Origin: Dichelobacter nodosus | GTDB taxonomy: Bacteria > Pseudomonadota > Gammaproteobacteria > Beggiatoales > Beggiatoaceae | DNA length: 42,429 nt | Reading direction: 5' to 3' | Assembly: GCA_020720085.1 (NCBI GenBank) | Contig: DYPE01000010.1 | Location: 1 to 42,429, forward strand | Shown here: one piece after another, positions 24,802-29,269 of the stretch | Layout of the letters: each line of letters starts with the position of its first letter | Position numbering within the stretch: position 1 is the first letter of the stretch | The notes under the pieces: model-generated | Told to the model about the DNA's origin: nothing | What the model saw: the letters and a program-made list of their open reading frames with translations, nothing else | Databases searched by the model: none | Translations under genes and position numbers: made by a program

Positions 24802-25041
24802 ATGAAAACTATTTCTATTGCAAGCAATGAAGACAGTGTTTTTATTCGCCTGGACAGAACACTTCTTGATGATAAAAAAATAATACAATTTATTAAGTTA
24901 GTCGAAGATATGTTTCCTGATTTAACCGTTTTTCCTGTCGAAGGGGTTAGTATGCAGGAACAGGCTGAAATAGAAAACATTATTGATAGCATGTCAATCG
25001 ATGATAAAAAAATTGATATTTCTCGGTTTGTTACATTATGA
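24802..25041 (+). CDS. Putative antitoxin of a RelE/ParE-type module
   Basis: A 79-residue acidic protein (MKTISIASNEDSVFIRLDR at the start, IDDKKIDISRFVTL at the end) with no family I can name. Its stop overlaps the start of the downstream RelE-like toxin (ATGA, 25038-25041), the usual arrangement for a type II antitoxin that neutralises its toxin and represses the operon. An in-frame ATG at 24769 would add 11 residues. The coding sequence is much more AT-rich than the preceding genes, suggesting acquisition. Confidence 0.65.
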   Translation: MKTISIASNEDSVFIRLDRTLLDDKKIIQFIKLVEDMFPDLTVFPVEGVSMQEQAEIENIIDSMSIDDKKIDISRFVTL

Positions 25042-25319
25042 ATTTACGCATAGATTATAGCAGGCAATCTATGAAATTTATAAATAAAAATTCACATATT
25101 TTATCAGTAGAAAAAGTGGATGAGTTAATTATAAAGTCAATGAGGCGTTTATTAAAAAATGAAAATATAAATATCGATTTAAAATCTTTGCGTGGTAATA
25201 AAAAAGGCTATTATAGAATTAGAATGGGAAGTATCCGAATTATTTTTTCATTTTTAGAAAACAAATTCGTTGTTGTATCTGTGGAAAATATCGGTTTTCG
25301 TGGTGAAATATATAAGTAA
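25038..25319 (+). CDS. RelE/ParE-superfamily toxin
   Basis: A 93-residue basic protein. The pattern LKSLRGNKKGYYRIRMGSIR, then IIFSFLENKFVVVSVENIGF and RGEIY, matches the conserved core of RelE-like mRNA interferases and ParE-like toxins (L.G...GYRIR.G..RI.F, then a C-terminal basic residue and Y). RelE members cut mRNA on the ribosome; ParE members inhibit gyrase; the sequence alone does not decide. Translation is coupled to the antitoxin by the ATGA overlap. AT-rich, next to a MITE-like element. Confidence 0.82.
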   Translation: MNLRIDYSRQSMKFINKNSHILSVEKVDELIIKSMRRLLKNENINIDLKSLRGNKKGYYRIRMGSIRIIFSFLENKFVVVSVENIGFRGEIYK

Positions 25320-25361
25320 ATTTTAGATAATTATTATTACCTAAACAAACCATCTTTATAA

Positions 25362-25452
25362 TAGAGTTGTTCCCAAATAAGCCAAAAGGCTGATTTCATC
25401 GTTCATAACCCATTGTTTTTACTGATGTGGGTTTTATTTGGGAACAACTCTA
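25362..25452. mobile_element. MITE-like element with 19-bp perfect terminal inverted repeats
   Basis: The ends TAGAGTTGTTCCCAAATAA (25362-25380) and its exact reverse complement (25434-25452) enclose 53 bases with no coding capacity. If the outer TA is a target duplication, the element is 87 bp with 17-bp inverted repeats, fitting a non-autonomous relative of TA-targeting elements such as IS630 or part of IS5. No transposase gene is present in the window. The flanks 25320-25361 and 25453-25519 show no gene. Confidence 0.8.
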
Positions 25453-25519: not shown

Positions 25520-28500
25520 ATGTTCAAATTCCTATCCAAACCATTGCCATTTGCCGTACTGTGGCTGATTATCCCAGCCCTTGCGCCATGCGCGGAAGAA
25601 ACGCCGTTGTTGCGCCTCAATCCCAATATGCACACGGATATGATTAATCGCGTAGAAATTTCCGCCAATCAAGCTGTGCTCGCCACCGCGTCAGATGACA
25701 AAACGGTGCGGTTATGGGCATTGCCCGAAGGTCGCCTATTCCGCACAGTGCGCCCATACCTTGGCCCTGGCCATGAAGGCAAGCTGTTCGCTTTGGCCTT
25801 ATCGTCCAATGGGTTGCAGTTAGCAACTGGCGGATGGACGAAAGGCGGATACCGAGGCGCGGGCAACCATAATGTTTATTTATTTAGCGCTGACAATGGC
25901 GAACTGCTCAACTGGCTGGGCGGGCTGGACAATTCCGTGTTGCACTTGAGTTTTTCTCCCAATGGCGAATATTTAGCCGCTGCGTTGTCTGGCAAAGCGG
26001 GCATCCGCGTGTGGCGCATGGCCAATTTAACCGAAGTATTCCGCGACCAAGACAGTGCGGGAGACTGTTATTGGGTAGAATTTGCCGCCGACAACGCGCA
26101 ACTGGCCAGCACCTGTTATGACGGCAAAGTCCGCATATACCAACACGAAGCGAACGATAAAACCGACACGTTCCGCCTGCGCCAAGCCGCGCAAATCGAG
26201 CAAGAAACCCAGCCATTCACTGCACGCTTCGCGCCGGATGGTACAAAACTCGCCGTAGGATTCAGAGGCAGCCCACATGCCGCCATTCTCGCCACCGATA
26301 CCCTGCAAGCGCTGGCGTGGGCCAAAGGCAGCAAAGGCGGCAAGGGCGATATTTTTAACGTAGATTGGTCGCTGGATGGCCAATATTTATATGGCGGCGG
26401 CAGCTATCAGGCCGGTGGTAAATACCTGGTGTTGCAATGGAAACCAGAAGGTGGGCGGCCTGTGCAACATTGGCCGGCAGGCATCAACACGATAACCGCT
26501 TTGCGCGCCACGAAAAACCAGCGGATTGTCTACGCCGACACATCTCCGGGCTTTGGAATGCTGGGAGACGATGGCAAGCCGCTCATCAACTACCACAGCG
26601 AAACGGTCGCTTTTAACCGCGCCTTTCCCGATGGTTTGTTGGTTTCGCCCGGTGGCGAAGAAATCCAGTTTTTGCACGACACACAATTCGGGAACACCGG
26701 CGCTGACAGCAAAGCCACGATGCGCTTCTCCTTGCGCCAACGCAAACTATTTGAAATCGTAGTAGAAACACCGCCCCCCACCGCGCCTGCGCCCATCACG
26801 ACAGCGGTTGGCCCAGTGAACGCCACCGGGAACACCGGCGTTACGCTTGGCGTGCCCTCTGTCGCGCCACCAGCCGTTGCGGCCCCGAACGCCGGTGTTC
26901 CCGGTAAAGCGGAGAGTCTTGGCGTGGCCCAGCCCCCCACCCAGCCTACGCCAACGCCGGTGTTCCCGGCAACGCCGGTGTTCCCGGTAGGGAATGCCGC
27001 GCCTGCCGCAACGAATACAACCCCCTCCGGGGAGGCCACAAAAAAGCGCATGACCACGGGCGAAGCCCAAGAGATTCTGCGTCAGCAAGGCTACTTCCCT
27101 GGCGCTATTGACAATATTTTGGGGCCAAATACGCGCACCGCGATAAAAACCTTCCAAAAAGCGCGCAACTTGCCAACCAGTGGCATTTTGGATGAGCCTA
27201 CTGTTGCCGCGTTACAAAAAAACACCGCACCCGGCGTGGTAGAAACCCCGCCTGACCCCGAAGCTACGCTATCGCCACCCCTGCTCAATGCGCCGGGCAT
27301 AGAATTGACCAATTGGCGACAGAATAACGCGCCGCGCCTAAACGGCAAACCACTGGAATTGGATAATTATGACATTTGCTTAAGTTACGCCATTGCACCC
27401 AACAACGACAGCCTGGTGTTGGGCACGCGCTTTTATTTGCGCCGCTACGGTAAGGATGGAAAAATGTTATGGAAACAAGGCATACCCGCAATTGCCTGGG
27501 CCGTGAATATCACCGCGAATGGCAAATTGGTCGTGGCCGCGCTACACGATGGCACGGTGCGTTGGTATGGACTGGCCGAGGGCGAAGAGCGGCTGGCGTT
27601 GTACCCACACGCCGACCGGCGGCGTTGGATCGCCTGGACACCACGCGGCCAATACGCCGCCTCGGTGGGCGCGGACGCGCTGCTCGGATGGCATATCAAC
27701 AATAAGCCCAATGAAGCGGCAGATTTTTATCCTGTGCGTGGCCTGCGCCGCGAATATTACCGCCCCGCCGCATTGCTGACCGCCTTGCGCACCGCGCCTA
27801 TGCCGCCAGCATTAGATAAATCGAGCGAACTGGCCGCACAGCCCGCACACGCCAAGGAGGGGGGGAAGGCGCTTGACAACGGTAGCGCAACCAACACCAC
27901 GGACGTGCCCCCAGCCCTGGAAACCGCCCTTCGGCAAGCTCAGGACACCGCTACGCCGTTGGCTGACGCTACCGCAACATCCGATACAGACAAGCCAGCC
28001 TCTGTTGAATCTGCCGAAGAAGAAGCCGATTTCCCTGAAAACTTGCCTCCCCAGATCGTCATTTTAGAACCCAAGGATGGTGCAAAATTTTCCACACCGC
28101 AAATAACGCTCAAATACCGTATGCGTTTTCACGGCGCGCAAGACCCAGCGGATGTGCGCATACTGGTTAACAGCATTCCTTGGCAAACCCTCAAAGCCAC
28201 CCAACAGGCCAATATTTTACAAGGCGAAGTGCAATTAGAACTGCCGCCGCACCATGTGGAGCTAGCGGTCATCACCGAAAACCGCCATGGTGTATCACCG
28301 CCGAAATTTGTCCGCTTACGCTGGCAAAATAAACAAACCGCCCTTCGGCAAGCTCAGGACACCGCCCTTCGACAAGCTCAGGACAACGCAGCGGAAAAGG
28401 GCAACCTATATGTGCTGGCAATTGGGGTTGGCGCATACCAAGATGCGAGCATCGCAGCCTTGCCGCAAGCCCCGCTCGACGCCCAAACATTTGCCAATCT

Positions 28501-29269
28501 GGTGAAGTCTCTACCCAATGAGCAATATCGTGAGATTGTAGTCAAAGTGCTTACCAATGCCACACATCAACAAATTATGGACAGCATGGAATGGCTATAT
28601 CCCCTCGTCAAACCCGAAGACATGACCGCCGTGTTTATTGCTGGCCATGCGTTTACCGACAAAAATGGCCTGTATCAATTTATGCCAGCAGATGCTGATT
28701 TTGAAGATAATTTAATTTCCAGTCTACAATTGATAGACTTACTGGTTAATTTACCCAGTAAAATCATTGTGTTCAACGATGTCGCCTATCCCCCTACCCA
28801 AGACAAAGCGTTACCGGATGCCGATGCGTTTGCCAATGAATTTAGCAGCCCGGAAAATGGCGTAGCCGTGTTTTCCTCCACTGTTGGCCAACAACAAGCC
28901 CAATTGGTGCCCCCGCCGACAGAATTGGCGAGCGCCCTTCGGCAAGCTCAGGACACCGCGCCACAAGCGCAACCCAAGGCCAAACCGGTGACCAATGACC
29001 CTTCGGCAAGCTCAGGACACCGCAAAAACGAACCGCCCCCCGCCGCCGAACCGCCGCCCCCCCCGCCGCCGCAAGGTGCTTTTGTCGCCGCCATTGTGCA
29101 GGCCACCACCGCCGCACAAACCCTAGACCCCAACCAGGATAGCAAACTGACCTTGCGCGAACTGGCTGAAGTCGCGTCAAAACTCGTCAGCGCACAAACC
29201 AAGGGCCTACAGACCCCAGTGCTTGCCATTCCAGAAACCGTGGCGGATGTGATTTTGCACGAGTATTAA
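25520..29269 (+). CDS. Exported WD40, peptidoglycan-binding and pseudo-caspase protein
   Basis: A 1249-residue protein. A signal peptide (about 1-25, ending APCAEE) is followed by WD40-like beta-propeller repeats (about 38-400, e.g. LATASDDKTVRLWALPEG), a Pro-rich linker, a PG_binding_1 domain (about 510-570, LRQQGYFPGAIDNILGPNTR), more propeller-like repeats (about 600-750), a linker, an Ig-like segment (about 845-930) and a caspase/peptidase C14-type domain (about 958-1249, NLYVLAIGVGAYQDASIAAL). The catalytic His is present (FIAGHAF, His1043), but the expected DTCHSG motif reads DVAYPP, with Ala1089 at the cysteine position, so it is probably proteolytically dead. An EF-hand-like loop (DPNQDSKLTLRE) lies near the end. 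Both linkers contain short dispersed repeats translated in frame. Probably a periplasmic scaffold or sensor; the function is unknown. Confidence 0.85.
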   Translation: MFKFLSKPLPFAVLWLIIPALAPCAEETPLLRLNPNMHTDMINRVEISANQAVLATASDDKTVRLWALPEGRLFRTVRPYLGPGHEGKLFALALSSNGLQLATGGWTKGGYRGAGNHNVYLFSADNGELLNWLGGLDNSVLHLSFSPNGEYLAAALSGKAGIRVWRMANLTEVFRDQDSAGDCYWVEFAADNAQLASTCYDGKVRIYQHEANDKTDTFRLRQAAQIEQETQPFTARFAPDGTKLAVGFRGSPHAAILATDTLQALAWAKGSKGGKGDIFNVDWSLDGQYLYGGGSYQAGGKYLVLQWKPEGGRPVQHWPAGINTITALRATKNQRIVYADTSPGFGMLGDDGKPLINYHSETVAFNRAFPDGLLVSPGGEEIQFLHDTQFGNTGADSKATMRFSLRQRKLFEIVVETPPPTAPAPITTAVGPVNATGNTGVTLGVPSVAPPAVAAPNAGVPGKAESLGVAQPPTQPTPTPVFPATPVFPVGNAAPAATNTTPSGEATKKRMTTGEAQEILRQQGYFPGAIDNILGPNTRTAIKTFQKARNLPTSGILDEPTVAALQKNTAPGVVETPPDPEATLSPPLLNAPGIELTNWRQNNAPRLNGKPLELDNYDICLSYAIAPNNDSLVLGTRFYLRRYGKDGKMLWKQGIPAIAWAVNITANGKLVVAALHDGTVRWYGLAEGEERLALYPHADRRRWIAWTPRGQYAASVGADALLGWHINNKPNEAADFYPVRGLRREYYRPAALLTALRTAPMPPALDKSSELAAQPAHAKEGGKALDNGSATNTTDVPPALETALRQAQDTATPLADATATSDTDKPASVESAEEEADFPENLPPQIVILEPKDGAKFSTPQITLKYRMRFHGAQDPADVRILVNSIPWQTLKATQQANILQGEVQLELPPHHVELAVITENRHGVSPPKFVRLRWQNKQTALRQAQDTALRQAQDNAAEKGNLYVLAIGVGAYQDASIAALPQAPLDAQTFANLVKSLPNEQYREIVVKVLTNATHQQIMDSMEWLYPLVKPEDMTAVFIAGHAFTDKNGLYQFMPADADFEDNLISSLQLIDLLVNLPSKIIVFNDVAYPPTQDKALPDADAFANEFSSPENGVAVFSSTVGQQQAQLVPPPTELASALRQAQDTAPQAQPKAKPVTNDPSASSGHRKNEPPPAAEPPPPPPPQGAFVAAIVQATTAAQTLDPNQDSKLTLRELAEVASKLVSAQTKGLQTPVLAIPETVADVILHEY
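26690..26988. repeat. Five copies of the GGGAACACCGGCGTT repeat inside the WD40/caspase gene
   Basis: Forward copies lie at 26690-26702 (partial) and 26828-26842. Reverse-complement copies (AACGCCGGTGTTCCC) lie at 26888-26905, 26953-26969 and 26971-26988, the last two in tandem with an 18-base period. All fall at or after the end of the first propeller and in the Pro-rich linker before the peptidoglycan-binding domain, and none breaks the frame. Confidence 0.8.
27927..29022 (+). repeat. Five in-gene copies of CCTTCGGCAAGCTCAGGACA
   Basis: Copies start at 27927, 28341, 28365 (tandem with the previous, 24-base unit), 28935 and 28999. The first four are read as ALRQAQDTA or a close variant; the fifth is in a different frame and read as PSASSGHR. 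All lie in linkers around or within a loop of the caspase-fold region. The unit is open in several frames on both strands, which explains how it can be tolerated inside genes. Confidence 0.9.

Follow-up and report, generated by a model that had tools for sequence, protein, structure and literature searches.

A double-propeller protein of Beggiatoaceae with a peptidoglycan-binding domain and a caspase fold that has lost its catalytic cysteine

The stretch of DNA analysed here (the window) comprises 42,429 nucleotides of contig DYPE01000010.1 (assembly GCA_020720085.1), labelled Dichelobacter nodosus and assigned to the family Beggiatoaceae in GTDB. An uninterrupted frame of 1249 codons at 25520-29269 on its forward strand encodes a protein in which two propellers, a peptidoglycan (PG)-binding domain and an immunoglobulin (Ig)-like domain precede a C-terminal caspase-fold domain with alanine at the position of the catalytic cysteine. 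The features of the open reading frame (ORF) are as follows; pLDDT denotes the predicted local distance difference test score of the AlphaFold2 models.

25520..29269, + strand: whole ORF, double-propeller/PG-binding/Ig-like/caspase-fold protein, 1249 amino acids, ATG start
25520..25594, + strand: predicted N-terminal export signal, residues 1-25, with a hydrophobic stretch at 11-25 (by eye and hydropathy)
25625..26575, + strand: first WD40 propeller, 7-bladed, residues 36-352 (Pfam, AlphaFold2 model, structure alignment)
26576..26758, + strand: second propeller, first part, residues 353-413 (model strands; contiguous with ~578 onward in insert-free relatives)
26765..27046, + strand: Pro/Ala/Thr-rich linker, residues 416-509 (pLDDT < 50, model residues 393-486)
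27062..27214, + strand: PG_binding_1 domain, residues 515-565 (PF01471, 6.8e-14; three helices in the model)
27278..27739, + strand: second propeller, remainder, residues 587-740 (model and comparison with relatives)
28046..28324, + strand: Ig-like domain, residues 843-935 (beta strands in the model; Big_7 in 6 of 24 relatives)
28403..29266, + strand: caspase-fold domain, residues 962-1249 (PF00656, 5.1e-7; Z 21.9 to 6w8r and 21.5 to 3bij)
28478..28480, + strand: Asp987, paired with Asp95 in the substrate pocket of TbMC2 (profile alignment; role of Asp95 from PMC6426788)
28646..28648, + strand: His1043, the dyad His, kept (alignment)
28778..28780, + strand: Asp1087, aligned with Asp211 of TbMC2 and invariant in the domain alignment
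28784..28786, + strand: Ala1089, at the catalytic Cys position (alignment)
29126..29161, + strand: EF-hand-like loop, residues 1203-1214 (DPNQDSKLTLRE); His-Cys relatives have it in the same position

The C-terminal part alone scored 30.0 bits against Peptidase_C14 (cut-off 21.4, E 5.1e-7), and all 24 aligned domain members matched this family at E ≤ 1. The Pfam scan of the full-length protein, for which 25 of 29 families were listed, did not show Peptidase_C14, and a genome-wide PF00656 search at E ≤ 1 returned three other genes and missed the ORF, which marks the window protein as a diverged C14 member. An AlphaFold2 model of residues 835-1249, run with 24 aligned sequences, reached a pLDDT of 85 and a predicted template modelling score of 0.78. 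Among its best Foldseek matches in the PDB were MALT1 (1.1e-8) and, in tenth place, GSU0716 (1.7e-7), and VIA-align gave Z 21.9 to Arabidopsis metacaspase 4 (6w8r; 216 residues, 2.8 Å), 21.5 to GSU0716 (3bij; 202 residues, 2.4 Å) and 20.6 to MALT1. Its alignment to full caspases extends through their C-terminal part. Profile score and model together bear out the earlier note on this DNA, made from the sequence alone, which had proposed a caspase fold retaining His1043.

The same note had placed the motif DVAYPP at the position expected for DTCHSG. In the alignment DVAYPP indeed lies over the DTCHSG of relatives, most of which read GHG...DTCHSGN, so that the catalytic Cys is replaced by Ala1089 and the following His by Tyr. 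The only cysteines of the ORF are residues 24, 183, 199 and 620; residues 835-1249 contain none, which rules out a substitute Cys elsewhere in the domain. A sequencing slip in a single metagenome-assembled genome is likewise ruled out as the cause of the loss, Ala being found in three other genomes as well. The dyad is thus His-Ala (HA) and not His-Cys, which fits a pseudo-orthocaspase, i.e., an orthocaspase with a substituted p20 dyad, and the domain almost certainly has no cysteine-peptidase activity. In a profile alignment to TbMC2, Asp987 lies over Asp95 and Asp1087 over Asp211 (TbMC2 residues numbered by us from printed alignment rows); PMC6426788 describes the two TbMC2 residues as substrate-coordinating.

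The window protein matched 39 of 57 genomes at E ≤ 1e-5, many of them through WD40 repeats only, and the domain alignment matched 38 of 42 genomes of the family that were searched. A contig scan with the window protein alone found a relative in none of 22 stretches, and a later scan with the alignment as query gave relatives; on viral contigs, none of 200 pattern stretches encoded one. Clear orthologues, with 43-51% identity to the window protein, are present in three genomes: a complete genome (G002), one labelled Thioploca sp. SL_4_0 (G026) and one labelled Thiomargarita sp. CSMAG_1650 (G011). As G002 and G026 belong to one genus, these make, with the window, four species in three genera. 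The dyads of the orthologues read HA, HA and YA, the dyad His being kept in three of the four proteins and missing in G011. The caspase-like domains of G002 and G026 have no Cys, and that of G011 has Cys876, in the strand preceding the site. The Asp pair of the pocket is present in the window, G002 and G026, with Asn at the first position in G011. In all four proteins PG_binding_1 stands at the same place and the propellers are recognisable, the G026 copy being split by a frameshift; the dead caspase on a propeller and PG-binding scaffold, as the earlier note had put it, is thus conserved as such in three more genomes.

The dyads of relatives were surveyed in 54 rows filling 150 columns, a selection of ours and not a census. 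Both positions could be read in 53 rows, nine of which are substituted: the HA/YA clade (4), an HS pair (G016/G031), a YN pair (G003/G027) and one SC row (L072). In addition, the fragment L104 reads DTSHSG. The HS pair (L059 and L060) represents a separate Cys-to-Ser inactivation in a lipoprotein-like double-propeller caspase with an unusually conserved remainder of the domain (65/68). The YN pair (L114 and L115) belongs to another genus and shows Tyr-Asn as a separate variant in a caspase rich in WD40 repeats; PMC6426788 describes this dyad from cyanobacteria as well.

For the tree the dyad columns were removed, 15 His-Cys rows from named records were added and 8 of the 54 rows were dropped as distant or fragmentary, which left 61 rows. 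The four PG-binding rows form one clade with support 100/100, and the shared position of the PG-binding domain together with the shared Ala provides independent support for it. The tree requires at least four losses of the His-Cys dyad. As far as alignment and tree can tell, the Cys loss is common to four species of three genera and represents one shared event, so that the loss in the window protein is no one-off, and at least three further dyad losses are indicated in the family.

Selection was assessed as the ratio of nonsynonymous to synonymous substitution rates (dN/dS) by Nei-Gojobori counting with our own script and without significance test. For G002/G026 the caspase-like domain has a ratio of 0.144, the PG-binding domain one of 0.218, the Ig-like domain one of 0.264, and the two propeller parts have 0.224 and 0.164. 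For the caspase-like domain the HS pair gave 0.176, the YN pair 0.268 and two His-Cys pairs 0.140 and 0.131. Control values of 0.69 (caspase-like domain of a low-divergence His-Cys pair) and 0.31 (propellers of another pair) show the script to be noisy. The low G002/G026 ratio nonetheless indicates that the dead domain is conserved in the one measurable HA pair, i.e., it is under purifying selection in G002/G026. Erosion was counted at positions conserved among 17 His-Cys relatives: the four clade members keep 41/68, 50/69, 52/69 and 42/64 of these outside the active-site loops, and 3-4 of 10 inside. The His-Cys relatives, left out singly, keep 91% outside and 96% inside on average. Outside the loops the YN pair is much eroded as well (36/67 and 34/66), unlike the HS pair (65/68).

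Regarding the scaffold, the first of the two propellers claimed in the earlier note is well defined: the WD40 profile PF00400 scores 74.6 bits on the full-length protein (cut-off 27; 5.1e-21), and in an AlphaFold2 model of residues 24-841 (pLDDT 73) residues ~36-352 match 7-bladed propellers with Z 39.2 and a root-mean-square deviation of 1.7 Å over 285 residues. The second, modelled less well, consists of residues ~353-413 and 587-740 and is split by the linker (416-509) and the three-helix PG-binding domain; in relatives without this insert the sequence is continuous across the insertion point. The claimed PG-binding domain was recovered at residues 515-565 (PF01471, 52.2 bits, cut-off 23, 6.8e-14), and the closest solved chains are those of the lytic transglycosylase SltB3 and a spore cortex-lytic enzyme. 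Two other claims stood in part. Export is predicted from the hydrophobic N-terminus, which has a hydropathy peak at residues 11-25 and looks signal-like by eye; lipoprotein-like N-termini were read by eye in the relatives L046, L059 and L060. The EF-hand-like loop has the 12-residue pattern at 1203-1214, however, EF-hand profiles gave no match to the window domain at E ≤ 1, and the EF-hand models listed each match one of the 24 aligned members.

With an intact dyad, the propeller-caspase scaffold is widespread: records from Solidesulfovibrio, Gallionella and Alphaproteobacteria contain double-propeller/caspase proteins that keep His-Cys. A wider scan matched 8 of 369 genomes, two of them within the protein's own family; the six loci fetched from the others, which belong to different families of the class, encode double-propeller or WD40 caspases with His-Cys. 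A profile built from the four PG-binding domains matched no other ORF in the Beggiatoaceae set (E ≤ 10), and no ORF in the six loci from other families. Two cyanobacterial records, L156 and L171, gave weak matches. The window protein is best read as part of a conserved branch of this widespread propeller-caspase family, which occurs in Beggiatoaceae and elsewhere.

The search for paralogues that keep the Cys, proposed in the earlier note, returned three other C14 proteins in the window's own genome (87% complete), all with His-Cys and none with propellers; one of them (L001) has a signal-like N-terminus. C14 searches found other His-Cys proteins in each of the four genomes (L224 was readable at His only, and L216 and L217 yielded no row). 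Signal- or lipoprotein-like N-termini were seen by eye in L001, in L220 of G002, in L222 of G026 and in several proteins of G011. In three of the four genomes the orthologue is followed by a co-directional SPFH/band-7 gene (L042, 2559-3539; L041, 4184-5269; L043, 2-757). Upstream of the ORF in the window are two small ORFs at ~24803-25320, the second of which resembles a RelE/ParE-type toxin by eye.

The ORF also carries five copies of a 19-nt interspersed repeat, CCTTCGRCAAGCTCAGGAC, which has 31 exact copies in the genome versus none for a reversed-pattern control. All five, between 27928 and 29018, lie in open frame and are read in two reading frames (ALRQAQD and SASSGH).

27928..27946, + strand: repeat copy 1, read as ALRQAQD (exact-copy search)
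28342..28384, + strand: repeat copies 2 and 3, in tandem with a 24-nt step, in the stretch that separates the Ig-like domain from the caspase domain
28936..29018, + strand: repeat copies 4 and 5, translated in two frames, within a loop of the caspase domain

The ORF is preceded at 25363-25451 by an 89-bp element that is bounded by perfect terminal inverted repeats of 18 nt, with 68 bp between the two. The terminal sequence of this element has 45 copies in the genome, mostly as pairs 71 bp apart, and the element resembles a miniature inverted-repeat transposable element.

The caspase-like domain probably works by binding and not by cutting, because relatives in two further genera also lost the Cys yet kept the domain. 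Our best reading, at a probability of about 0.5, is that of an exported, wall-tethered pseudo-orthocaspase which would act as a non-catalytic scaffold or as a competitive brake on active exported orthocaspases. The PG-binding domain on its long flexible linker would tether the protein to the wall in the periplasm, and the two propellers would hold partner proteins. The caspase-like domain, with its acidic Asp987 and Asp1087, may still bind basic peptides or caspase partners without cutting, and the protein may thereby restrain the cell's own active exported orthocaspases. The role of regulator of active paralogues, suggested in the earlier note, is possible.

Several points weigh against the scaffold-or-brake reading. 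Partner binding, wall binding and export are predictions from sequence. Propellers are absent from all other C14 proteins read from the four genomes, i.e., no active partner of the same architecture was found. The SPFH gene is not adjacent in the window, its orthologue lying on another contig. The window row was flagged as a long branch in the tree built with it; it is the most diverged of the four copies (end branch 0.95), and selection within the clade was measurable only for G002/G026. Furthermore, a Chromatiales record (L142) has PG_binding_1 (2.3e-6) at the same place together with an intact His-Cys dyad, the gene itself being split in two frames. Since L142 has both, PG binding is not tied solely to inactivation; a strict coupling of PG-binding gain and Cys loss, which fitted the Beggiatoaceae set, is contradicted by it. 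The earlier note's view that this is not a standard architecture needs qualifying, since the propeller-caspase scaffold as such is widespread with His-Cys and in L142 even has the PG-binding domain.

Possible, if on the doubtful side, is that the caspase-like domain serves only a structural or ligand-binding purpose within a wall-bound adaptor, to which the former protease partners are irrelevant. Erosion is strongest in the active-site loops and has left the fold in place, PMC7159879 offers a role as "peptide-binding domain" as an alternative for inactive caspases, and no propeller-bearing active paralogue was found in the same genomes; however, the pocket Asp pair and the dyad His are each kept in three of the four proteins, which is beyond the need of a bare scaffold. 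Slow decay of a domain that lost catalysis, with the gene left as a relic, chiefly in the window genome with its inserted repeats, is quite unlikely. The five in-frame repeat copies and the longest branch of the clade in the window copy, the frameshift in G026 and the absence of His and one pocket Asp in G011 would fit a relic, but the dN/dS of 0.144 between G002 and G026, the window frame open over 1249 codons and the recognisable PG-binding domain and propellers in all four proteins do not. That the domain is still a peptidase, acting through another residue or through water activated by His1043, is highly improbable: His1043 and both pocket Asp residues remain, but there is no Cys in the domain, Ala occupies the nucleophile position in all four proteins, and His is lost in G011.

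As an extension of the scaffold-or-brake reading, giant and filamentous sulfur bacteria might have evolved a wall-anchored brake resembling c-FLIP, in which a dead propeller-caspase on peptidoglycan captures substrates or partners of active exported orthocaspases. We regard this as unlikely; if true, part of caspase control would take place in the periplasm and not in the cytoplasm. The orthocaspase sets of Beggiatoaceae are very large, with, e.g., 59 metacaspases in one Thiomargarita cell (PMC4853749), and Beggiatoa is among the metacaspase-rich genera (PMC4933709). Recurring dead members, kept under selection on a wall-binding scaffold, offer a defined and testable start for asking what they bind and whether some of what bacterial caspases do takes place in the periplasm.

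Pseudo-orthocaspases as a kind are already known: they account for 858 of 9,994 orthocaspases, with HA and YA among their dyads, both common in Rhizobiales (PMC6426788). Among 671 prokaryotic metacaspases, 73 have WD40 and 11 have PG-binding domains (PMC3501461). The architecture, clade and setting of the window protein did not come up in the searches made of open-licence literature. Inactive caspases have been proposed to be dominant-negative regulators or mere peptide-binding domains (PMC7159879), and deletion of a cyanobacterial pseudo-orthocaspase led to higher oxidative-stress tolerance (PMC7889975). The inactive effector-position caspases of MoxR-vWA conflict systems (PMC7159879) resemble the window protein in having inactive caspase domains in multicellular prokaryotes, with a proposed binding or dominant-negative role, however, they are fused to a vWA component. 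The His-Cys double-propeller proteins with C-terminal caspase (Solidesulfovibrio L134, Gallionella L139, Beggiatoaceae L044 and others) share the domain order, with ~30-48% identity over aligned pieces, but differ in their intact dyad, and the PG-binding domain is found among them in Chromatiales L142 only. The bacterial pseudo-orthocaspases (PMC6426788; SyOC, PMC7889975) share the substituted p20 dyad, the grouping of pseudo-variants in clades and the kept pocket Asp pair. Those of PMC6426788 are mostly alphaproteobacterial or cyanobacterial and have TPR, trypsin or DUF partners, whereas in the window protein, from Beggiatoaceae, two propellers and a PG-binding domain precede the caspase part.

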